NCBI GenBank assembly: GCA_961205875.1
Contig: OY540820.1
Coordinates: 806,001 to 870,000 of the forward strand
Direction: 5' to 3'
From: Sialis fuliginosa
Lineage: Eukaryota; Arthropoda; Insecta; Megaloptera; Sialidae
Length of the DNA stretch: 64,000 nt
Part shown: positions 3,000 through 64,000 of the stretch, piece by piece
How the letters are laid out: each line of letters opens with the position of its first letter
Numbering within the stretch: the first letter of the stretch is position 1
Program-made: the position numbers and the translations under genes
The notes under the pieces: generated by a model
Database searches by the model: none
Seen by the model: the letters and a program-made list of their open reading frames with translations, nothing else
What the model was told of the DNA's origin: nothing

Positions 3000-4154
3000 T
3001 TTATATTGTATTTTATGTACTTACATGATTACATGATATTAGAAATAATTTGGTTTTTCTGCTTGCCATCTATCAATGTCTCATATAAATATTTTGATAT
3101 TTTCAATTAACATTTTTCATAATTTTAATACTTGTAAATTATTTAATACTTGTGAACTATTTAACAGAGCTTTACAAAACATTTTGAAGATGCACATTGA
3201 CATTTTAGTTGAATGATGTACATAGATAAGTAAATTTAACAGATGTACAAATTTCGAACAACAATTAAAAAAGTATCATTTAAAATTACGACAATGTTAT
3301 TTTTAAATTATATAAATTCTTCTGATATTTATGATTACATATTAATTTAATAAAATACCTATGTAGGTAAAAATATTGAAATATCAATAACTTTAAGTTT
3401 TAAATTTTAATGTATTACCTATGTTATGCCGAATGTTAGTCATTCGAATGCTGTAATTGTTTGTCTTCAATTTTTTTGACATATTTATGTACGAAAATTT
3501 TAATTATTCATTACTTTGAGTTGTGCATATTTTTTTCATTCGTTATGTTCTTTATATTTCTTTTTTGTTATATTTTATTGTTGATATTAATAAACACATT
3601 CACTTCCAAATCTTAAATGGCCACTGACATTTAAATTTTTTTAAAATAATCAATAAAATATAATGTATCCATAGTTACGACATTTGCAATTAATTTAGTA
3701 GATGCTTAAAGCGACTTATATGTAAACGTATTTTGTTTATTTTCTCCTCTTTAACATATCTTTTTCAAAAATCAGACACGGGTTCATGGTTGTCAATTAA
3801 CCAAAGTATTTGAAAAAAAAAAATCTAATATCGGTTTTCGTTTTGATAGTTTTTTACATCAAAACTTTTTTTTCCTTTTTTTTTCTTTTTTTTTAAATCT
3901 GAAATTTGAACCTTACATTATATCGCCCAAGGAATATAAAAAAAATAATAAAAAAATTCTAACTTTTTTTTTGAAAAATTGGGAGCCCCTTGTTACCCCA
4001 TTTATAAACTTTTTCAAAAAAGGCCCACTAGTTGTTATTTTTTACCCCCAAGGAATGTATATACCAAATTTCAAGTTTCTCCGATGAGTGGAAATGGTCA
4101 AAAAAATGATTGTGAGTCAGTCAGTCAGTCAGGGCACTTCGTTATATATAGTAG
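3000..4154 (-). repeat. Helitron-type 5' unit, copy 1
   Basis: This is a diverged copy of the sequence at about 6660-7893. It ends, read on the plus strand, with GGGCACTTCGTTATATATAG followed by TAGA. On the minus strand that end reads TCTACTATATATAACG preceded by A, as expected for a Helitron 5' terminus beginning TC. It directly abuts the CTAG terminus of the next element at 4156. Long poly-A/T tracts and a GTCAGTCAGTCAG microsatellite lie near 4115-4130. No coding content. Confidence 0.6.
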
Positions 4155-5770: not shown

Positions 5771-7893
5771 CCTGAGTGGATCCTGACTGGCCTATATGGT
5801 AGGTACTTTCCCGCGACGGAATAATATAGTGCTGTGACGGAGTGCTTTCTTATTTATTCATTAGAGCTGGGCTTTTATCAATTTTAATTTTATTAATTTT
5901 AAGATATTTTAGAAAAATCGTACCTGTTAAAACTTTATTGCACAAACTAAATATGGTTTCTCTATGAGGTTTTTTCAATATATTTTTTACCCTCAATAAC
6001 TCAATTTGGTTGATATTGAAGTATGATGTAGAACAGTGCTTCCTAAACTTTTCCTACGACAGAACACTTCACAAATCCTGAAATTTTAATGGAACGTCTT
6101 GGTTATTTTGTAAGTAATATATAAAATAAGGAAAAAAGTAAATTTAAATCAGTCAAGCATGTTTGAACTTCTCGCAGCATTTAAAAACATTGAATATTAA
6201 CTTTGATATTTTTTACGCTTAAACTGATAAGACATACGTTATATATCGTAGTACAGGTATTCCTCGACTTACAACCGAGATAGGTTTCTAAACATCGATC
6301 GTAAATAGAATAAGTTGTAAGTTAACACGTACAATATGTACATATTTTTGCTTTGGACGTTTTCCTTGATGTGAAGCGAATCGCATTTTCTATACATAAC
6401 AAACAGTTGCGGGTTCCCAAAAATATCTACATAAATAATAATAAATTACATTTTTGGGAAATTCCCGGAACTGTTTGTTTCATTTATGTAATATGTGCAT
6501 GTAAGAAAGAGACAAAGACAATTATAAGTCGAGGATTACCTGTATATTTGTTTACGATGCGTTTTCAACTCTTGTCGTATGAAAATATATTGCATACTAA
6601 ATACATATTATGACATTTGTTTCTGATATGACAACGACAAAAAATTATTTTATGACTTCTGGTACATGTATTGTATTACATCATGTACTTACATGATTTG
6701 AACATTTTATGAATATTAAAAATAATTTCATTTTTGGTTTTTCTGCTCGTGTCTTTCAAAAATTCATCAATGTGTCTATATAAATACATTATTAGCTCTT
6801 GTAGATACTCGTACACCCTTTGTACAATTAATTAATTAATTACAATCAAATATAGGTCTTGTCAATTGAATGAAGCTTTCGTAACAATTTGCAATAAATC
6901 AACATCTTGTTTTAATTTTGTAAATGTACATTTTAGGTTAGTACATTGGGTAAAGATGACAGATATACAGTTTCAAACAACAATTAAAATAATATCATTT
7001 AAAATTACAATGTTAATTTGAAATTATATAAATTCTTCTGATATTTATGATTACAAATAAATATAATAAAATACCTATACCTATGAAAGTAAAAATATTG
7101 ATAATTCAATGACTTAAGATTAAAAAAATGTCATTATATACCTACTTAATTTTTATTTGTACCGGGAACACATATCTATCGCCGAATGTTGGTCGAATTG
7201 TGTCCGAATGCTGTAATTGTTTGTCTTCAATTTTTTTGTCAAATTTATTTATGAAAATTTAAATTATTTATTACATTAGAGTTGTGCATATTTTTTCGTT
7301 CGTTATGCTCTTTATATTTCTTTTTTGTTATATTTTATTGTTCACTTCAAAATTTTAAATGGCCACTGACATTTAAAATTTTTAAAAATAATCAATAAAA
7401 TATAATGTATCCATAGTTACGACATTTGCAATTAATTTAGTAAATGCTTAAAGCGCATTATATGTAAACGTATTTTGTTTATTTTCTCCTCTTTAACATA
7501 TCTTTTTCAAAAATCAGACACGGGTTTATGGTTGTCAATTAACCAAAGTATTTGAAAAAAATTAAAAAAATCTAATATCGGTTTTCGTTTTGATACTTTT
7601 TTACATCAAAACTTTTTTTTCCTTTTTTTTTCTTTTTTTTTAAATCTGAAATTTGAACCTTACATTATATCGCCCAAGGAATATAAAAAAAATAATAAAA
7701 AAATTCTAACTTTTTTTTTGAAAAATTGGGGGCCCCTTGTTACCCCATTTATAAACTTTTTCAAAAAAGGCCCACTAGTTGTTATTTTTACCCCCAAGGA
7801 ATGTATATACCAAATTTCAAGTTTCTCCGATGAGTGGAAATGGTCAAAAAAATGATTATCAGTCAGTCAGGGCACTTCGTTATATATAGTAGA

Positions 7894-9431
7894 TTACAAA
7901 TTAATACAATAAAATACCTATGTATATCAATAACTTTAAGTTTTAAATTTTAATGTATTACCTATATTATGCCGAATATTAGTGATTCGAATGCTGTGAT
8001 TGTTTGTCTTCAATTTTTTTGACTTTATGTACGAACATTTAAATTATTTATTACTTTATAGTTGTGCATATTTTTTCATTCGTTATGTTCTTTATATTTC
8101 TTTTTTGTTATATTTAATTGTTCATATTAAACACATTTACTTCAAAATTTTAAATGACTGACATTTAAAAATAATCAATAAAATATAACGTATCCATAGT
8201 TACGACATTTGCAATTAATTTAGTAGATGCTTAAAGCGCATTATATGTAAACGTATTTTGTTTATTTTCTCCTCTTTAACATATCTTTTTCAAAAATCAG
8301 ACACGGGTTCATGGTTGTCAATTAACCAAAGTATTTAAAAAAAATTTAAAAAATCTAATATCGATTTTCGTTTTGATAGTTTTTTACATCAAAACTTTTT
8401 TTTTGTTTTTTCTTCATTTTTTTTAAATCTGAAATTTGAACCTTACATTATATCGCCCAAGGAAAATAAAAAAATAATAAAAAAATTGTAACATTTTTTT
8501 TGAAAAATTGGGGGCCCCTTGTTACCCCATTTATAAACTTTTTCAAAAAAGGCCCACTAGTTGTTATTTTTTACCCCCAAGAAATGTATATACCAAATTT
8601 CAAGGTTCTCCGATGAGTGGAAATGGTCAAAAAAATGATTGTGAATCAGGGCACTTCGTTATATACAGGGTGGGACAATAGTGTGTGGAAGTTCGATAGC
8701 TCGTAGACCATGAAAGATAAAAAAATCTTTCTAATGCGGATGTAAACTGTGGGTAAATGCGCATACATAGAAATTATTTTCAAAAATTAATTTTTTAAAG
8801 TAAATATTGTTGAATTTTGTACTTTTTGCTCAATAAATCAAAAATGGTTACAAATAACCATAAGGATGTACAAACAAAAAATGCTCGTTATGTAATTCTA
8901 CATAACAACGCTAAAAAATATATAGGGTGTTCCATTTGAAATAGTTGAGAAAAATAACTTTGAAGTTATCAAAATTTGAAAATTAATTTTGAACATCCTG
9001 TACATGGTGGCTCTAAGATATTTTAAAAAAAGCACCCACTAGCCTCCTACAATAAGGTTCATATTTAATTTCCTCTATAAAGATGCGGCCGCTGAAGGGG
9101 TGAATTTTTAAGTGGAGTAGTGTAAAAGCTATTTTTTTTGAAAAAAATATTATTACGTCTAGACCGGGCATCAGAGGGGGCTAATATTTTAGATATGAAT
9201 AAACATCCGAAGAGAAGTGTTAAATATGCAAAAATATTTAGGGTATTCCATTTAAAAAAAATTATCTCAAGCGTACCACACTTTTTTGTAGCACCCTGTA
9301 TATTTGAAAATAATTTCTATGTATGCGCATTTACCCACAGTTTACATCCGCATTAGAAAGATTTTTTTTATCTTTTATGATCTACGAGCTATCGAACTTC
9401 CACACACTATTGCCCCACCCTGTATAGTAGA
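7894..9431 (-). repeat. Helitron-type 5' unit, copy 3 (interrupted)
   Basis: Third copy of the unit ending GGGCACTTCGTTATATATAG-TAGA. It occupies 7894-8665 and 9425-9431 and is split by the foldback at 8666-9422. Joining the outer parts and removing one TA reproduces the uninterrupted terminus seen at 4154 and 7893. No coding content. Confidence 0.7.
8666..9422. mobile_element. Foldback element nested in a repeat unit, TA duplication
   Basis: A 757-bp palindrome with CAGGGTGGGACAATA at the left and the inverse TATTGCCCCACCCTG at the right, flanked by TA (8664-8665, 9423-9424). The empty site is present in the sister repeat copies, so the insertion is directly documented. Arms are similar for at least 120 bp from each end (for example CTAATGCGGATGTAAACTG and its inverse). 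No transposase. Confidence 0.9.
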
Positions 9432-43769: not shown

Positions 43770-45065
43770 ATTCATATATCGTGCGCACAGTTTGAAGACA
43801 TTTTTTTATTATACGTATATCGGGTGTATAGTTTGAAGTCTTTTTTTTATTATATGTATATCGTGAGCATAGTTTGAAGTCTTTTTTTACTAAACGTATA
43901 TCGTGTGCATAGTTTTAGGTCTATTTATTATACGTATATCGTGTGCATAGTTTGAGGTCTTTTTTATTATATGTATATCGTGTACATAGTTTGAAGTCTA
44001 TATATTATAATTTTTGGCGGCAGTTTTAAAATCGACTATTTTTATAAAAAAACAAAATTTATGTTTAAAATTAAATAAATATTCTAAAGCGATTTTAAAT
44101 CAAAGTTCAATAAAAAAACGAAAAGAATGAGCTCTATAAAATGCATAATATGGAACATTTCGAAACATAATTAAATTAATTGTGTATAGTTTTTGGTGTA
44201 TTATTATTTGTTTAAAATTAAATAAATATTCGGTTCTAAAACCGATTTTAAATGAAAGTTCAATAAAAAACAAAAAGAATGAGCTCTATAAAATGCATAA
44301 TAAGGAACATTTCAAAACATAATTAAATTAATTGTGTATAGTTTTTGGTATTTTTATTATACATATTATTATATCGTGTACATAGTTTGAAGTCTATTTA
44401 TTGTATATCGTACGCATAGTTTGAGGTCTTTTTAATATACGTATATCGTGCGCATAGTTTGAGGTCTTTTTATTATACGTATATCGTGTGCATAGTTTGA
44501 GGTCTTTTTATTATACGTATATCGTACGCATAGTTTGAGGTCTTTTTAATATACGTATATCGTGCGCATAGTTTGAGGTCTTTTTATTATACGTATATCG
44601 TGCGCATAGTTTGAGGTCTTTTTATTATACGTATATCGTGCGCATAGTATGAGGTCTTTTTATTATACGTATATCGTGTACATAGTTTGAAGTCTATTTA
44701 TTGTATATCGTACGCATAGTTTGAAGTCTATTTATTGTATATCGTACGCATAGTTTGAGGTCTTTTTATTATACGTATATCGTGCGCATAGTTTGAGGTC
44801 TTTTTATTATACGTATATCGTGCGCATAGTTTGAAGTCTATTTATTGTATATCGTACGCATAGTTTGAGGTCTTTTTAATATACGTATATCGTGCGTATA
44901 GTTTGAGGTCTTTTTATTATACGTATATCGTGCGCATAGTTTGAGGTCTTTTTATTATACGTATATCGTGCGCATAGTTTGAGGTCTTTTTTATTATACG
45001 GATATCGTGCGCATAGTTTGAAGTCAATTTATTATATATCGTACGCATAGTTTGAGGTCTATTTA
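43770..45065 (+). repeat. Minisatellite, 38-bp and 34-bp units in blocks
   Basis: The main unit is 38 bp: TTTTTATTATACG, then TATATCGTGCGCATAG, then TTTGAGGTC. A 34-bp variant has TATTTATTG in place of the first block and GTACGCATAG. About five or six units lie at 43780-43990 and roughly 18-20 at 44360-45060. The blocks are separated by an unrelated spacer (about 44000-44350) with GGCGGCAGTTTTAAAATCGA and AATGAGCTCTATAAAATGC, and the same spacer follows the array at 45070-45235. No protein-coding frame or spacer diversity is present. Confidence 0.85.
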
Positions 45066-45434
45066 TTATAATTTTTGGCGGCAGTTTTAAAATTGACTGT
45101 TTTTATAAAGAAAACAAAATTTGTATAAAATTAAATAAATATTCGGCTCTAAAACCGATTTTAAATGAAATTTCAATAAAAAACTAAAAGAATGAGCCCT
45201 ATAAAATGCATAATAAGGAACATTTCGAAACATAATTTTTCTATCAAAATATATGTGTAATGTTGCTCGATTTCAAAACTTTAAAAAAATGTTATTCGGT
45301 CGAAAAGAATGAGGGAGGAGAGTTAAAATTTGGGAAACATGTTTTTGATATGTGGTTTAAAAAATAGGTAGCAGAATCGGTGACATATGTGCACCCTATT
45401 TTTTTTTTTTTTAAGTACTGGATTAGCTCATATA
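45066..45434. repeat. Repeat of the minisatellite spacer, then AT-rich DNA
   Basis: 45070-45235 repeats the spacer at about 44005-44170 and 44205-44340. The remainder, with a run of T near 45400, is unmatched. Confidence 0.6.
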
Positions 45435-52730: not shown

Positions 52731-53186
52731 TTACACAGATACACAAAAAAAAGTACGAAGCCAAAATAGCGACTAATATAGCACTGTAGTATTGGTCGAG
52801 CATGGTCTAAATTCAAATTTTTGGAATTTTCTGCTTACCGTTTTTTTTATTTGAGCTTGAATTTTGGGTTTAGCCAATTTTGACAAATTCAATCTAAACG
52901 CAAAATTCAAGTTCAAATAAAAAATTTCTGCCTTGGGAACAGAGTTGGGCATTAGACGATTAATTTTTTTAGTCGATTTAAAAATTGACGAATAACGAAT
53001 AAACTGCACATTATTCGCAACTAACGAATAAATATATATATATTTTAGGCCCGTATTGTTAAAATAACAAATACTCATATACTAAATAGAAACCTTGCTT
53101 ATAATTTAATAAATTTAAAAAATTGTACAGAACCGTATTGAGTGATATTTGAGGCCCGTGTATTAAATTAATTAATAAACTCACAA

Positions 53187-54086
53187 CTCGCCCCCTGTCA
53201 CAGATGAAGGGTTGCAACTGGTTTCATTCGATCCGGCGGGAAAAATACTTCGGGATTCTAGGGGATTGGGGGGGGCAAAACAACCCTCTACCTAGCACAG
53301 GAGTCGAGATATTTACGATTTTCTGTAATGAATACCATAAGTAGCGAAACAGAAAATTTCAATATTTACAATAAATACAGCATAGAAACATAAGATATTA
53401 TTATTAAATTTAATAAAATGAAAAAAAAGTACAGACACGTATTTAGTGATATTTAAGTCCCGTATTGTTAAAATAACAAATACACATATACTAAATAGAA
53501 ACCTTGCTTATCCTTAATATATACATATAAAGCTCAACGTCTCTCTGTCTGTCTGTCTGTCCGTTAGTTACCTTATCACTCGAGAACCACTTAAATTTAC
53601 TTTAAAACTAAACTGATCGGTAAGAGAATTCCACTGTAATCCAAGTATTTTTAGACTACCTTTATCAACTCGCCCCCTGTCACAGATGAAGGGTTGCAAC
53701 TGGTTTCATTCGATCCGGCGGGAAAAATACTTCGGGATTCTAGGGGATTGGGGGGGGCAAAACAACCCTCTACCTAGCACAGGAGTCGAGATATTTACGA
53801 TTTTCTGTAATGAATACCATAAGTAGCGAAACAGAAAATTTCAATATTTACAATAAATACAGCATAGAAACATAAGATATTATTATTAAATTTAATAAAA
53901 TGAAAAAAAAGTACAGACACGTATTTAGTGATATTTAAGTCCCGTATTGTTAAAATAACAAATACACATATACTAAATAGAAACCTTGCTTATCCTTAAT
54001 ATATACATATAAAGCTCAACGTCTCTCTGTCTGTCTGTCTGTCTGTCTGTCTGTCCGTTAGTTACCTTATCACTCGAGAACCACTT
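53187..54086 (+). repeat. 406-bp tandem duplication with a 76-bp filler
   Basis: Unit 1 (53187-53592) and unit 2 (from 53669) appear identical apart from a longer TCTG microsatellite in unit 2. The joint holds 76 bp (53593-53668) that are not part of either unit and are identical to 57569-57644 in the BEL pol region, same orientation. Unit 1 includes a copy of the Helitron 5' end (53510-53592), so the duplication is younger than the Helitron insertion. Confidence 0.9.
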
Positions 54087-54825
54087 ATCCGATTTACGTG
54101 TTTTTTTTTTTAATTCAAAGGCTATATATTTTTACGTTAGGTAACATAACAACTAAGCAGTGACGATAATAGTAAATCAACTCGGAAAAAATTTTGCCGT
54201 CGGCGCGCTGTTTTGTAATACACTGCCTATACCGTTCAATATAGAACAAAATAATGTATTAAAAAATTGTGTAGAATCAAAAGTTCTACAATAAAGTCCG
54301 CGACACGATATGTCTAACTTTTATATTTAAGCCACAATGACTGCTTTTATGTTACAAAGAAAACATAAAATATTTGGGTTCTGTTTACATGGATTTATGA
54401 CCTGCAAAACATTAATCCTTATCAAAATAAATGATTTCATCGTCATAAGTACTTAATGTAGATATAATTTGCCATTTACAGCATCCAATTTGGTCGTATA
54501 GTTTAGAAAATATCGAAATATATGTTATACAGGACATATTATTCGCGCGTTTTGACCGTGCGCGGGGAGCGGCGAGGGAACGTGCCAACACGCTGGGCAG
54601 AACAGGCCGGTATTCTATTGATTGTCAATTGTTTATTTTGTTTTCAATAATTAACTTTTAAATTTAAATAGAACATTTAAATAGGTACCTAGGTAATTTA
54701 AGTGTTATTTGGTTTTTATTACATTAATAACTAATCGTGTTTGTAATTAATTCAACTATATATTTTTTAAATCCTAAACAATAATTCCGTAGTCCACGCG
54801 AGCGAAGCCGCGTGGGCCCAGCTAG
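53993..54825 (+). mobile_element. Non-autonomous Helitron (833 bp) with empty site
   Basis: A|TCCTTAATATATACATATAA at the start and GCCCAGCTAG|T at the end, preceded by the hairpin CCACGCG...CGCGTGG. The paralogous unit at 53090-53110 reads CCTTGCTTATAATTTAATAA without insertion, so the A|T target is confirmed. No Rep/helicase. Confidence 0.9.
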
Positions 54826-55812
54826 TAATTTAATAAATTTAAAAAATTGTACAGAAGAGTATTGAGTGATGTTTGAGGCCCGTGTATTAAATTAATTAAT
54901 AAAATCACAACTCGCCCCCTATCACAGATGAAGGGTTGCAACTGGTTTCATTCGATCCGGCGGGAAAAATACTTCGGGATTCTAGGGAATTGGGGGGCAA
55001 AACAACCCTCTATCTAGCACAGGAGTCGAGAAATTTACGATTTTCTGTAATGAATACCATAAATAGCTAAACAGAAAATTTCAATATTAACAATAAATAC
55101 AGCACAGAAACATAAGATATTATTATTAAATTTAATAAAATGAAAAAAAAGTCCAGACACGTATTAAGTGATATTTTAGACCCGTATTATTAAAATAACA
55201 AATACACACATACTAAATAGAAACCTTGCTTATAATTTAATAAATTTAAAAAAAAATGTACTGACTGATATTTGAAGCCCGTGTATTAAACTAATTAATA
55301 AACTCACAACTCGCCCCCTGTCACAGATGAAGGGTTGTAACTGGTTTCATTCGATCCGGTGAGAAAAATATTTTGGGATTCTAGGAATGTGGGGGGCAAA
55401 ACAACCCTCTATCTAGCTCATTATTCTTATTAATATACATATAATATATAATATAATATATAATATATGTAATATAATCTTATGTTTCTATGCTGTATTT
55501 ATTGTAAATATTGAAATTTTCTCTATTTCGCTACTTATGGTATTCATTACAGAAAATCGTAAATATCTCGACTCCTGTGCTAGATAGAGGGTTGTTTTGC
55601 CCCCCCAATCCCATAGAATCCCGAAGTATTTTTCCCGCCGGATCGAATGAAACCAGTTGCAACCCTTCATCTGTGACAGGGGGCGAGTTGTTTGTTTATT
55701 AATTAATTTAATACACGGGTCTCAAATATCACTCAATACACTTTTGTACATTTTTTTTTAAATTTATTAAATTACAAGCAAGGTTTCTATTTAGTATATG
55801 TGTATTTGTTAT

Positions 55813-56246
55813 TGTATTGGCTCGAAAACCAATCCTGGTTAGGCTGGTTTTTTGGTTGGAAGTGAACTGTATGGAATATAGTATGATACATAAAGTGAAA
55901 CGATACGAACTAACCTTCTTTTTGGTGGGTGCTCCGTCTCGTGGCTCCAATTGGCAGTGAGTGGTAAGACGTGGAAATAAGGGATAATCCGGTATCTCAC
56001 TCCTGCACTCCACTACACTTTTCACTATATGTATCAGTTTTATTGCTATTAACACTATTATAATATTTAACAAAAATAATGATATTCAAATTTACTTGTA
56101 TAGTTTCACCAACGGTGGTTCTTAACATACTTACTTCTTATCACTAAAATTTCAATTCCCTTTAGGGTGGGGGGTATGTACATATTATCAGGCATGCAAT
56201 GCCATCTAGGAACGAAATCGAAAATGCTATGAAACCGGCTACAACA
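55813..56246 (-). repeat. BEL/Pao 3' LTR
   Basis: TGTATTGGCTCG...GGCTACAACA on the plus strand, 434 bp. It differs from the other LTR at only a handful of positions (for example near 55841-55858, 56003, 56180 and 56208 in this copy), so insertion is fairly recent but not new. Short open frames in it are also in the other LTR. Confidence 0.9.
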
Positions 56247-56331
56247 TCCTGCCCGGCCCAAAAATTAAATAAACGGAAACAAAAAATATATTCATTGGCT
56301 TAAACTAAACTAAAACTAGACTAAGGCTAAT

Positions 56332-57903
56332 TTATTGAGTTGGAAGGGGGCATAGTTTGACTACGGGTCGTGTGTAGCTACTATGCTTGGTTTTTACTAA
56401 AGCTACCCGAGTTACCCCATCTTTACCCGGATATACCCTTTCGATGAAGGCTAATGGCCACTGTAGTGGGGGGATATTATCGTGCATTATCACGACAACC
56501 GTACCCACATTAATTGGCGTATTGGCATGTTGCCATTTTTGGCGAGCTTGTATAGTATGCAGGTACTCTAAATGCCATCTTTTCCAAAATACCTGTGCCA
56601 TACTATCTAATAATTTATAACGACCTATAAGGTTCGTCATGGGTTCTAGAACTACATTTTCTGACGGCAAGCTGTTTAGTGGAGTGGTACAAAGAAAATG
56701 TGCTGGGGTTAGCGCGGTCGGTTCGAACGGATCATTACTGAGAGGACACAAAGGGCGTGAATTTAATATGGCTTCAATTTGGGTGAGCACCGTATTAAAC
56801 TCTTCGTCTTTAAAATTCAAATCATTTTTGTTAAATGTTTCTATCGGCCATTTTGCTGGTGGTAAAAATAACCACGGGGGATCCGATAACCAGAACGATC
56901 GTGATACAACTTCTAACGGGGTAAGACCTCGAGATATAACATCCGCAATGTTTGATTTACCCGGAATAAAATACCAATTACAGGCAGGTAATTGGGTTTG
57001 GATGGTGGAAACTCTATTTGCTACAAATGTAAGTGTAAGTGTAAGTGTAAGTGTAATCATTGAGTCTGAAAGTGCAAAAATTTGATCAATGATTTTTCGG
57101 GGGGAATATATATCCCGAATATGCGCGATAAGTTTTGATAATAATACGGCAGCGCAAAGTTCTAATCGAGGTAATGTTACACCTTGCATTGGGGCAACCT
57201 TGGTTTGGGAACAAAGGAATGTAACATTAGTTTTGTTTTTTGAATCTGTAACTACCGCATAAACTACCGCTCCATAGCCCGCGGGAGATGCATCCGCGAA
57301 ACCAACTAATTTAAAGGAAAGGGTATCCTCAAATATTGACAAATGTCGAGGAATTTTTATATCATTTAACATTTTGAATTCATTTTGGATTTTGGTCCAT
57401 GACTTTTCAATTTCCGGGGGGACTGGATCATCCCAATTTAGTTTCATTTGCCATAACTTTCTAATCAACAATTTTAAATATAAGGTGAATGGCGCAATGA
57501 ATCCTAACGGATCGAAAATTCTAGCCACTATCGATAAAATATTTCTTTTGGTACATGGGGTTTTCTGAAAATTTACTTTAAAACTAAACTGATCGGTAAG
57601 AGAATTCCACTGTAATCCAAGTATTTTTAGACTACCTTTATCAAATTCTATGGTTGGGAAAAGTTTTAAATCATCAGAAATTTTCGATAATAATTCGGAC
57701 GAATTGGATATCCATTTGACCATTTGGAAGCCTCCTGACTGAAACAACTCAACTAACTGGTTATGAACTACAAAGGCATTTTGCACATTTGGCAAACTAC
57801 AAATCAAATCATCCATATACATATCTCGATTGACATGTACAATGGCTAGGGGGTATGTTTGCAATTCATCTTGGCATAACTGTTTCAGAACTCGTAGACT
57901 CAA
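56332..57903 (-). pseudogene. BEL/Pao pol, second part (RT end, RNase H, integrase remnant)
   Basis: 523 codons in a different frame from the upstream part. The RT catalytic YMDD-type motif (MYMDDLIC) is near residue 28, the A17-type RT continuation and RNase H region (VGFADASPAGYG) near 200, and the integrase C-terminal region (EAILNSRPLCPL near 374, then WKRWHLEYL). Between the RNase H region and EAILNSRPL the family normally has the zinc-binding and DDE core of integrase; here they are absent, an internal deletion near residues 355-370. A TTACAC run at about 57030-57055 adds a (TL)n stretch. The product cannot support integration. Confidence 0.9.
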
Positions 57904-60385
57904 ATAGCTGGTTTGACACCGAATGTGACAGTATTCATTTGGTAAATGGATGGTTGCTGTTCCGAACTAAACCTCCATAAAATTCTTTGGAACGATCTAT
58001 GTATATTTTCACATTGATTTGGCGATACATTTGTTTTATATCCGCGGTTACGGCTATGGGAAAAAGGCGAAAATTAAGCAAAATACTAATTGCACTATTT
58101 TGCAGTTTTGGCCCTGTATACAATATGTCATTTAAGGAAATTAAATTATTCGTTTTTGCACTTGCATCAAAAACGATTCGGCAAGGGGTTGTTGTGCTAT
58201 CGGCTTTAAAAATACAATGATGTGGATTATAATAAGAAGGATCCATTAACTTTTCTTTCGGAACTAGAGACATGTGACCTTGATCTAGGTAATCTTGCAT
58301 TATGGAATTATAAGTTACTCTAAGATCTGGACATTGGTCCAATCGTCTTTCTAGCGAACTAAGTCTTTTTAAAGCTGATTGCTTGGAATCCCCTAATTTT
58401 AATGGGTCATCCTTAAATGGAAGCGCGACTGAATAACGACCAGTGGAATCACGCTTAACATTTTCGGTAAATATTTGCTCACAAATGTGATCTTCTTCGG
58501 TAGGAGTTATAGTGTCTGTGTTATCTATTTCCCAAAAATTTTCTACTAAAGTATCTAAACTGAGAAATACAGAATATGTTGAATTTTCTTTTGAATTTTG
58601 AAATGAGGTTGCGGAACCAAAAACTACATAGCCCAACGCGGTTTGAAGGGCAATTGGTGTCTCAGGTGGTCCAGTTACTTTATGTGTACCAACTATTTCC
58701 GCAAACAAAGAGGCACTTAAAATTCCCTGAATGTCCCCAGGAATATGGTAAGTGGGGTCAGCTAATGGAAGAAATTTTAAGTGATCGAACGAAGTGGTAT
58801 TTATTTTAACATCAGGTAATATGTTCGCTATTGTATCCACTACTAAGGCTTCTATTGCAAATTTCAAATTCGGATTAAGCGTTGACTGAATTAACAAATT
58901 TGTTTTTCCCTTGACTGGCTTGCTTGTACCACCGATTCCTTTTAAATTTGTAAAAGTCTTAGAAAAATACAATCCCAATTTCTTACAACAATCAATTGTC
59001 AAAATATTAGACATAGATCCCGTATCTACCAAAAATCTAACTTGTTGCTCTTTGCCCCATCTATCAGCTACATTAACTATGGCAGTAAATAATAAAATGG
59101 TTGATCTGGAATTTTGGTCGGTGGAACCGTTAGTAGTACATAAGCGTTGGATATTGCTTTCTGAAACAACGGGATTAATTTTCGAATCATTGCTGTTAAG
59201 GTCTGATTCACGATGTAACAAAGTATGATGTTTTAATTTACAAATAATACACGAAAATTTGGAAGGGCATTGTTTTACCGTATGTTTATTAGAAAAACAA
59301 TTAAGGCACAAATTTTTTTCTTTAATCAAATGAAATCTTTGGTCTTGTGTCTTTTCTTTGAACGGTTGGCAATCTTTCAACAAATGGAAACCCTTTTGAC
59401 AAGCAATACAATTATACTTGACAGTTGTGTGTTCTGTCACAAAAGTTTTGGTACCCTTTACAAAATTACTCCGAGGCTTTTCCATTTTGACGGAAATTTT
59501 GCTTTGATTTTGAATAAATTGCATTAACTCTTTATAGATAGGAATTTCTTGATTCGCACGAATCAATTCAATACAATTTATCGTTTCTTGGGGCAATTTT
59601 GTCATGGCTATATAGGTAAAAAGAAAATCAGATAAATCTTCTAATTTTAAACGTTTAAGGGCATTCACATTAGTGTCAAAACTTTCTAAAAATATTTGCA
59701 ATGAATTTGGATTAGGGTTGATTAAAGGTTTAAAATTCAATAATTTTTCAAAATACAAGTTAGCTAAATATTTTTTATTTTGGTATTTATCTTCAATTAA
59801 TTCCCAAATAATTTCATAATTGGCTGGAAGTGGTTCTATATTACTACAGCATTTTAAAGCCTTCCCTTGTAAACTACTCAATAAATACTGTAACTTTTCG
59901 GAGTTCGACAAGTCAGAATCGTTATGTATTAAGTTTTTAAAATTTTTATAAAATAGGGGCCATATTGAAATGTCTTCACCGTTGAATTTCATTAATTCAA
60001 TCTTAGGCAGGTGTACGCGAATTTTCTTTGAATGTTCTGAATGCACAGACCCAGTTTTAGGAGGAATTTCAGCTAACACTGTACTAGCTGTAAATTCAAT
60101 ACGATTATACAAATCTTCAAAAGCTTCTAAATTAGCGTAATCAGGGTTTTCCTCAGAATTTAATTCTAATTTCAAATAAACAATACGCTCTATTATGTCC
60201 TTATATTCTTCTCCAGTTTTGTTAAGGGCAGCATAACGAATTCTAAAATCTTTTAATATGGCTGCATTATTTGGATCTACTTCTAAATTTGAACTTAAAT
60301 CGTATAAAATTTGGACTCTACGAAATAAAGTTTCTTTTTTGGCAATTAAGGCCTTTAGTTTTCGTTCGGATTTATCCTCAGCCAT
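57904..60385 (-). pseudogene. BEL/Pao gag-protease-RT, first part
   Basis: 816 codons from the ATG at 60385 to a stop at 57935. Order: a gag-like N-terminal region with a DUF1759-type segment (FNGEDISIWPLFYKNF, about 133), Cys/His clusters (about 322-385), a retropepsin-type protease with FLVDTGS (about 453), and the start of RT (PCRIVFDASA about 720, TADIKQMYRQ about 785). The frame then breaks between RT motifs; the next part resumes in another frame at 57903. An intact element has one long gag-pol frame here, so this copy is interrupted. Confidence 0.92.
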
Positions 60386-61278
60386 TTTGAAAAGATAAGC
60401 CGAAAATTAAAATTAAACAGGTACCAGAAAATGTTTCAACAAAAATTAAAATACTAACCCGTATTCTAACAAAAATCTTATTGGATTAATTATTCAAATC
60501 TCAAATAACTGAATAATAAATTTCAAATATATCTACTAACAATAGGTGATATAGTATTCGATGATCATATAACAAAATATAATTAACTAACATGAAGTTC
60601 TATACACAAATAGAATAATAAATATATTTAGTACGTCCCTGTATTCCTATGAACAATATTAAAAAACTACGAAATAATATTAATTAAATAATACGAATGT
60701 GGTGATATATTGCACTGCTTATGTCTATAATTTAATTATATCCTATTATTTTCCTTAACAAAAAAATATTAATGTAAATAAACAATATATTTTTATTTGC
60801 CAATGAATATATCTTCAATATACACAATATGTGTAAAACGACCATAATAATACAAACGTATATATTTTAGTTAACATTGACGATTTTGTTCATAGTACAT
60901 AGATTTTAAATTAATATTTAATTGGATAATAAAATCTAATGGGCAATTAAATTTTACAAATCTTGAAATGACGTACGGAATACGTTCTATCTTGTAAGTG
61001 GATTTTGGTTTTAACATGAAATTCAACAATATATTTTATACGTATATTTTTATAATTAACAATGAAAATATACTTTTCAACAATAGGATTGAACTTTTCG
61101 GCAATTTGGTAACTGAAAATCTTTAATAATAATTTGGTATTATTATGGGGGCAATGATTTCCTACAACAACATACAAATTTGGTGAACACATACAAGTAA
61201 ATATTGTCCAGGCCCAATGGTTTAAAACAAACGAACATTTAATGTTAATAACAATCCGGGTCGAATGAGACCATTTAA
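60386..61278 (-). other. BEL/Pao 5' untranslated leader
   Basis: AT-rich, between the 5' LTR and the gag ATG, about 890 bp. Open frames here are short and not protein-like. Confidence 0.6.
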
Positions 61279-61713
61279 TGTATTGGCTCGAAAACCAATC
61301 CTGGTTGGGCTGGTTCTTTTAATTGGAAGTGAACTGTATGGAATATAGTATGATACATAAAGTGAAACGATACGAACTAACCTTCTTTTTGGTGGGTGCT
61401 CCGTCTCGTGGCTCCAATTGGCAGTGAGTGGTAAGACGTGGAAATAAGGGATAATCCGGGATCTCACTCCTGCACTCCACTACACTTTTCACTATATGTA
61501 TCAGTTTTATTGCTATTAACACTATTATAATATTTAACAAAAATAATGATATTCAAATTTACTTGTATAGTTTCACCAACGGTGGTTCTTAACATACTTA
61601 CTTCTTATCACTAAAATTTCAATTCCCTTTAGGGTGGGGGGTATGTACCTATTATCAGGCATGCAATGCCATCTAGAAACGAAATCGAAAATGCTATGAA
61701 ACCGGCTACAACA
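61279..61713 (-). repeat. BEL/Pao 5' LTR
   Basis: TGTATTGGCTCG...GGCTACAACA on the plus strand, 435 bp. It would carry the element's promoter on the minus strand. Confidence 0.9.
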
Positions 61714-62003
61714 GTTATTTTAACAATACGGGTCTAAAATATCACTAAATACGTGTCTTGAAAATTAATTCAAGAACTGACAATAACACCGATCATGCAT
61801 CATAATTATGTATATTACTACGCCAAAGTACAAGTAGTAATAGTTCAATCGTAATTTTTTAGTTTGATTAATCTGAAACTAACGAATGATTATTCGTTAT
61901 TCGTTAGTTGCGAATAAGAACTGCGATTTATTCGTAAATTTTTATTCGCACTCACGATTGAATTTTGCCCAACTCTGCTTGGGAACCACGGGACTTTCTT
62001 ATA

Positions 62004-62111: not shown

Positions 62112-64000
62112 CAGGGTGAGTCATATCAGGTGGAACAAACTTGAACCGTAGATTGAGAAAAATATTTTAAGCAAAAAACATTATATAAACATGTGTCCGG
62201 AAATTTGTCATGAGGGGGCTACAGCCCTCCAAAAATTTTATTAAAAATTATTTTTTATTTAATATCTGGAAAACCCATTATGCTAAAGCTATGAAATTTA
62301 TACGGAGCTTAGTATGAATAAGTATTATTGATTTCCAGTATTAACCAATTATAATTTAGACCAGGGCTGTATGGGCCCAGTAGGCCCATCGATTTTTATC
62401 TAGTATTTTTTTGTTCTTTAATTTTTTTCTGAGTTAGATATTTGAATTTGTATGACACAAAATACACAAAAATATACTTTGCTAATTTATCATAGGATAA
62501 ACCGTTTACGATAAATATGGATGCAAAAGAAAGGATGCTGAATTTTACTTAATACGGATGCTTCAAATTACAAAAAATATTTTTATATTCTTGTTCTATG
62601 ATAAAAAATAAGACTAAAAAATAATAAAAATATACCTCCAAAAATTCATCCTTACCAACAAATAGCCATTTTAAGTATAGCTTTCTAGTTATGTTAGTAA
62701 ATTACTTGCAACATAAATAGAACTGGCTATAGCTCTAAGAGGACACGTATTGGGTGATATATGTACATGAACTTTTTTCTTACCATTAATCAAAGAACAG
62801 GAATATAGATTTATTTTGTTTAATTTGAAGCATCCGTATTAAGTAAAATTCTGCATGCTTTCTTTTGCAATGATATTGGTCGTAAACGGTTTATCCTATG
62901 ATAAATGAGCAGAGTATATTTTTTGTGTATTTTGTCTCATACAGTCTTATTAAAATCTCTAACACAGGAAAAAATTAAAGAACAAAAAAATACTAGATAA
63001 AAATCGATGAGCCTACTGGCCCCTTACAGCCCTGGTCTAAATTATAATTGGTTAATACTGGAAACCAATAATACTTATTCATACTAAACCCCGTATTAAA
63101 TTTCATAACTTTAGCATAATGGGTTCTCCAGATATTAAATAAAAACTAATTTTGAATAAAATTTTTGGCTGTAGCCCCCTCATGACAAATTTCCGGACAC
63201 ATAATTATATTGTAACGTGGAAATACTATATTAGAAATAAAAAACCCAACTTGATTTTTTTAAAGTACTCAGACAGAAAACTTTATTCTAATTACATACC
63301 AATAAATATTTTACACACCAAAAGGCAATACATAACTTAATTCTACGATCAACAAATGAACCATAGCCAGCTCACCGATAAAATACTGCTGGAATGGTTA
63401 TACAGTTCTAAAGAACATAAGAAAAATAAAGAACTAATGAAAGAAAAAAAGAATTAACAACACTAAGCACGCGCTAATAATAACATAGTAAGTTTCACAA
63501 ATTATTATATTTGGCACTATTCGTAAACAAACGTCCCACATTAAAAAAAAATATACTTAAATACACAAAATTCCGAATGAGTGAACAAATAAGTAAAAAC
63601 ACAAAAGGCAAAATAGCCAAATATATACACAAATAATAACTAAACACCAATCACTTCGAAGGAAGGTTACAGGGAATCCTTTACTTGTGATTGTCACTTT
63701 AGATTCTCCAAGGTGTTTTCTATCGAAACTCCAAATTTCAACTGACGACACTTCGTGTAACCGGCTATCCAGTTTTCTCCGATGTTACGTGCGTATTTAT
63801 CTTACGCGGGTTTCCAGTTAAGTAATATTATTATACTATAGACTGTAAAAACACATAATATCTTGAGAATTCTTTTAAACCAACAATGCATTAGAAAGAG
63901 ATTATTTCAACTCATAATATATGTTTGTTGGTAATATTATAATATAATGTTTTTTGCTTAAAATATTTTTCTCAATCCACGGTTCAAGTTTGTTCCACCT
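62112..64000. mobile_element. Foldback element, cut by the window end
   Basis: It begins TA|CAGGGTGAGTCATATCAGG. The left arm runs to about 62690, and the right arm mirrors it (62700-63198, resuming about 63945-64000). The window stops about 30 bp before the expected right end. Its arms include GTGTCCGGA and CTACAGCCC blocks. The right arm is interrupted by an insertion of about 745 bp. Confidence 0.8.
63199..63944. mobile_element. Unclassified insertion in the foldback right arm
   Basis: It interrupts the arm after TTTCCGGACACA. It starts near TGTAACGTGG (63211) and might be a solo LTR, but I could not show a CA end or a target duplication. Short frames inside are not recognisable proteins. 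Confidence 0.45.

Follow-up and report, generated by a model that had tools for sequence, protein, structure and literature searches.

How did 76 bp from inside a BEL/Pao retrotransposon come to lie between two direct copies of a segment that joins parts of two other transposons? Positions 53187-54086 of the window, by which we mean the whole 64,000-nucleotide stretch of Sialis fuliginosa DNA that was analysed, raise this question. We addressed it by defining the elements and joints at the locus, by comparing each breakpoint with related sequences in the genome and by weighing the repair routes that could yield such a product.

Nested elements, duplication units and joints

The outermost element at the locus is foldback-like, with arms that are inverted repeats built of tandem subunits of ~410 bp (Table 1). 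Terminal inverted repeats together with an 8-bp target-site duplication, which we take to be hAT marks, are present in this element and in a relative; in the related C10 copy (L006), both ends are found about 1.9 kb apart with GTGGACGG flanking both sides. Among the six relatives L003-L008, two of which overlap, the motif of the left end is present in four and that of the right end in two. The genome contains numerous relatives, several of them arranged as nearby inverted pairs. Just to the right of the hAT-type element, positions 62183-63210 form a 1-kb imperfect palindrome that is 84% identical to its own reverse complement.

Table 1. Window coordinates of the nested elements and of the duplication
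Feature	Positions	Strand	Details
Host hAT-type, foldback-like element	52940-61977	.	Ends CAGAGTTGGGCA / TGCCCAACTCTG; 8-bp CTTGGGAA on both sides
CAA	53184-53186	+	Common to host sequence, filler end (53666-53668) and donor end (57642-57644)
Duplication unit 1	53187-53592	+	406 bp; 324 bp of hAT arm and first 82 bp of Helitron (53511-53592)
Templated filler	53593-53668	+	76 bp; identical to 57569-57644
Duplication unit 2	53669-54086	+	418 bp; continues into full Helitron
Helitron-type element	53993-54825	+	833 bp; TC...CTAG; GC-rich palindrome before 3' end (seen by eye)
BEL/Pao retrotransposon	55813-61713	-	LTRs of 434 and 435 bp; flanking GTTAT
BEL open frames	60385-57935 and 57903-56332	-	Peptidase_A17, DUF1759, DUF5641, aspartyl protease (Pfam)
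Candidate filler donor	57569-57644	+	Inside second BEL open frame, just upstream of Peptidase_A17 match

Both the Helitron-type element and the BEL element entered this host as later insertions. At a hAT subunit boundary, the Helitron separates an A from a T, and uninterrupted counterparts of its insertion site are found in the same host element at 53101/53102 and 55232/55233. It begins with TC, ends in CTAG with a preceding hairpin and lacks a target-site duplication; the TC, CTAG and hairpin motifs are those that define a Helitron. Over the full 257-base query, with 40 of 331 candidates scored, the nearest copy elsewhere is 93% identical, which is evidence against this Helitron having been active recently. 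Elsewhere, members of its family lie head to head at L017 (C12:998.9 kb), where a third partial copy follows close behind the pair, and at L031 (C1:6999.6 kb), and at L003 (C11:2750 kb) this Helitron family and the same hAT family lie side by side in opposite orientations. The BEL element carries the LTRs, short target-site duplication and Pao peptidase A17 domain of the BEL/Pao group, and its LTRs differ from each other by 6 substitutions and 1 indel.

Within these elements, two direct copies of one segment flank an unduplicated spacer, the arrangement of a tandem duplication. The sequence-only reading had described two copies of a 406-bp segment. Two direct copies are indeed present, but this length is exact for unit 1 only, as unit 2 carries 12 bp more of a GTCT microsatellite; the units have no substitutions between them, and the microsatellite is their sole difference. 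The other features named in that reading were recovered as described: a spacer matching the BEL sequence without a mismatch in the same orientation (76/76 bases on the same window strand; E 2e-33 in a search within the window), CAA common to both sequences at the right joint (3 bases) and a single A (1 base) at the left joint. The identity between filler and donor extends 0 bases beyond either edge, and an identity over 76 bases is not due to chance. Because the long BEL open frames lie on the minus strand, the filler, read on the plus strand of the window, is antisense relative to BEL.

Two familiar processes do not fit this structure. Ordinary BEL integration was rejected, as the insert is an internal piece of pol without an LTR, and the flanking direct repeat is 406/418 bp rather than a short target-site duplication. 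Unequal crossing over between hAT subunits was likewise rejected because the duplicated unit extends into the Helitron and shared sequence at the joints amounts to only 1 and 3 bp.

Breakpoints, donor copies and order of events

When the joints were searched as 32-base patterns allowing up to 2 mismatches, the 392-Mb genome yielded one match per joint on the forward strand and none on the reverse strand. A 261-bp query spanning both joints gave one full-length match among the 40 scored of 2585 candidates; repeat counts from these genome searches are lower bounds. We then compared the breakpoints across 45 loci, with L001, L002, L013 and L016 (the studied locus) and L009 (the local BEL) left out, and called a locus continuous when its alignment covered at least positions 35-65 of the 100-base query. 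Outside the studied locus, 7 loci (6 places, as two overlap) are continuous across the host breakpoint, and 4 loci across each BEL breakpoint. The Helitron breakpoint is continuous in all 30 other matching loci (40 of 331 candidates scored, and 30 of 46 matches retrieved), by which recurrent breakage at the Helitron 5' end was rejected. Among the 45 loci, no other match at the host, Helitron or BEL source stopped at the breakpoint. Since relatives of all three source sequences run on across the breakpoints, the duplication and its breakpoints represent the derived state.

The sequence-only reading had proposed a genome search for other BEL copies that could be the donor. A 316-bp BEL query found 7 places in the genome, with all 7 candidates scored, one of them the filler itself. 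Against the filler, the four close BEL copies match at 76/76 (local), 76/76 (C11, at C11:670376-670451 as computed from the locus offset), 75/76 (C14) and 73/76 (C2) bases. The C14 and C2 copies, with 1 and 3 mismatches over the 76 bases, are poorer donors, and two further C14 places were rejected at only 70% and 65% match. The spacer thus has an identifiable source in the local BEL and C11 copies. Among the copies found, either of these two, which are identical over the 76 bases, may have been the donor, and proximity favors the local one.

With respect to the order of events, the duplication must be later than the Helitron, as the sequence-only reading had argued, because unit 1 contains 82 bp of the 5' end of an element that is complete only from 53993 onward. 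The place of the BEL insertion in this order can be approached through divergence. Microsatellite length aside, 0 of 482 aligned bases differ in the duplicated and filler sequence (406 in the units and 76 in the filler), against 6 of 434 between the LTRs (Fisher p = 0.011; p = 0.031 for the units alone against the LTRs), and the 95% upper limit on divergence is 0.6-0.7%. This difference weakly suggests that the local BEL insertion preceded the duplication event.

Routes of repair

With the breakpoints derived, the joints unique as searched and a donor present, the evidence supports the earlier proposal that a break was repaired by template switching into BEL, in this copy or another, with a templated insertion left behind. 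We consider it very probable that a single error-prone repair event, with filler copied from BEL, made the locus. The simplest reading, and a supported one, is a templated insertion at the joint of a tandem duplication. The event would have begun at a break, or a stalled or collapsed fork, within the 5' region of the Helitron, at what is now 54086 in unit 2, where the growing 3' end would have left the Helitron template. It would then have copied 76 bases of BEL pol, 3482 bp from its point of departure, and gone back 3976 bp to where unit 2 begins (pre-event coordinates), rejoining the same arm about 0.4 kb behind its exit. The product would be a tandem duplication with a templated insertion at the joint, so that one serial template switch would explain both. 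Switches of the opposite polarity are equally possible, and we leave polarity free because the reverse order would yield an identical product. We infer the switching of templates by a DNA polymerase, the role of the local copy as a donor in cis, what triggered the event and its occurrence in the germ line.

Our analysis favors aborted synthesis-dependent strand annealing (SDSA) finished by polymerase-theta joining, or MMBIR/FoSTeS, with no choice between them. Random joints in this element would share at least 3 bases with a probability of 0.072 and at least 1 base with a probability of 0.475, and two joints would sum to at least 4 with a probability of 0.105. The 1- and 3-bp microhomologies are thus within chance and do not prove microhomology priming. 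In DNA folding of the five breakpoint stretches, between 66 and 190 of 200 shuffles did at least as well as the real sequence, and a hairpin at the breakpoints was rejected as none of the five folds unusually well. As shared bases and folding are both ordinary, the evidence does not establish microhomology or a local hairpin as the cause. A possible trigger is the pair of large inverted arms.

The genome encodes polymerase theta, which may have acted in this duplication. Helicase and polymerase parts lie on the same strand at G000:C2:30662342-30667783, outside the window. The helicase part, at C2:30662342, combines DEAD, Helicase_C, HTH_61 and POLQ_helical domains in one open frame, with POLQ_helical matched once in the genome. 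The polymerase part (C2:30666019-30667783), 3.7-5.4 kb downstream, holds three of the eight polymerase A matches in the genome; the first two of these read through one TAG, as may occur at an intron.

The product does not discriminate among aborted SDSA plus polymerase-theta joining, MMBIR/FoSTeS and patch repair of a staggered break. In the last of these routes, nicks ~400 bp apart on opposite strands would have left tails that were filled in before the two ends were linked by a 76-bp patch of BEL DNA. This would give the same product, and the sequence holds nothing to distinguish it from template switching, but a stagger of ~400 bases is long for the patch route. One study does propose paired adjacent nicks on opposite strands as a source of tandem duplications (PMC5730883). 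On balance, we regard patch repair as unlikely. A patch reverse transcribed from BEL RNA, in the manner of class 2 templated sequence insertions, is quite unlikely. BEL elements are generally known to encode a reverse transcriptase, and a review with a section titled 'TSIs are derived from RNA' describes class 2 TSIPs as using sequence from a distant region to patch double-strand breaks (PMC5110952). However, an RNA patch would not need the perfect donor that lies 3.5 kb away in cis, the insert is without poly-A, and no reverse-transcriptase family was listed when the local BEL frames were scanned against Pfam in six pieces, although the cutting may hide a match. Both of these routes lead to the same product and overlap template-switch repair, our best explanation.

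An assembly or library artefact, in which a chimeric molecule or a wrong join created a structure absent from the organism, is very unlikely in our judgment. The units are without substitutions and are known from a single assembly, and template switching during amplification makes artificial structural variants in amplified libraries, according to a fly study (PMC11226609). Against an artefact, the 12-bp microsatellite difference means that the units are not simply one stretch entered twice, and a 482-bp period should be easily spanned by long reads. Finally, it is highly improbable that the Helitron itself started the repair, by a nick and displacement synthesis at its 5' end whose fork collapsed ~80-94 bases in and switched to BEL and then to the upstream flank; if this were true, aborted rolling-circle transposition would leave 5'-flank duplications with filler.

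Related events and other repeats in the window

As far as one assembly can show, the locus is a real and well-resolved repair scar, well preserved but ordinary, and one of a known kind. Closely related cases are on record from worms and flies. Among the papers listed in a literature search, no title or abstract opening describes this exact arrangement, which is not a claim that it is absent from print. Patch-mediated tandem duplication in a plant, rice, reportedly described by Vaughn and Bennetzen in 2014, has inserted DNA flanked by a direct duplication, as here. In Caenorhabditis elegans helq-1 mutants, tandem duplications that span ~100 bp to 10 kb (median ~1 kb) arise through POLQ-1, some of them carrying a templated insertion, and duplications of this type are rare in the wild type (PMC8654963). 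The present case resembles these in a unit size within the worm range and a templated insertion at the joint; the worm events differ in that they were found in mutants.

The hobo transposon is a hAT element. In the fly study, hobo cases with duplications fit an MMBIR/FoSTeS model, and 11 of 17 duplications were attributed to repair, MMBIR being one such route; these repair-type duplications had median block sizes of 3.7-4.5 kb, and seven of them carried insertions, which measured 1-27 bp (median 7) (PMC11226609). Serial template switches giving a duplication and an insert are common to those events and ours, but the fly blocks are larger and the fly insertions shorter; by that measure, we count a 76-bp filler as long.

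Pack-TIRs offer a third comparison. There, breaks inside TIR transposons are filled by template switching, the same chromosome is the main source of the filler (59.8%), one breakpoint or both show microhomology in 67.6% (1-36 bp, median 2), and FB4 elements with repetitive TIRs carry structural variants including tandem duplications (PMC8277862). The locus studied here shares with them the break inside a TIR element and, for the local donor, a filler source on the same chromosome. In contrast, the Pack-TIR text considered here has captured DNA as non-transposon sequence, does not describe it as lying between two copies of a duplication and finds microhomology above chance in most of the human cases tested, which is not so here (PMC8277862). 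Templated insertions in people are covered in PMC5110952.

No accepted mechanism is changed by this case. It offers a clean natural example of duplication and filler made in one step, in which donor candidates, event order and ancestral states can be read from one assembly, and it illustrates how a nest of transposons can provide the site of breakage as well as the template in a rearrangement.

A scan of the window found 12 direct repeats with a spacer, and in 5 of these, including the one studied here, the spacer or most of it recurs in the window. The other candidates for a second event of this type were judged to be of another kind: 53040-53511 consists of hAT subunits, 44338-45070 is a tandem array, and 7049-7921 and 7205-8668 are long repeats with further copies. 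At 7205-8668, direct repeats that are 91% identical lie 98 bp apart, and 60 bp of their spacer match 3381-3440 at 96.7%; these repeats are perhaps, as a guess, of LTR type.
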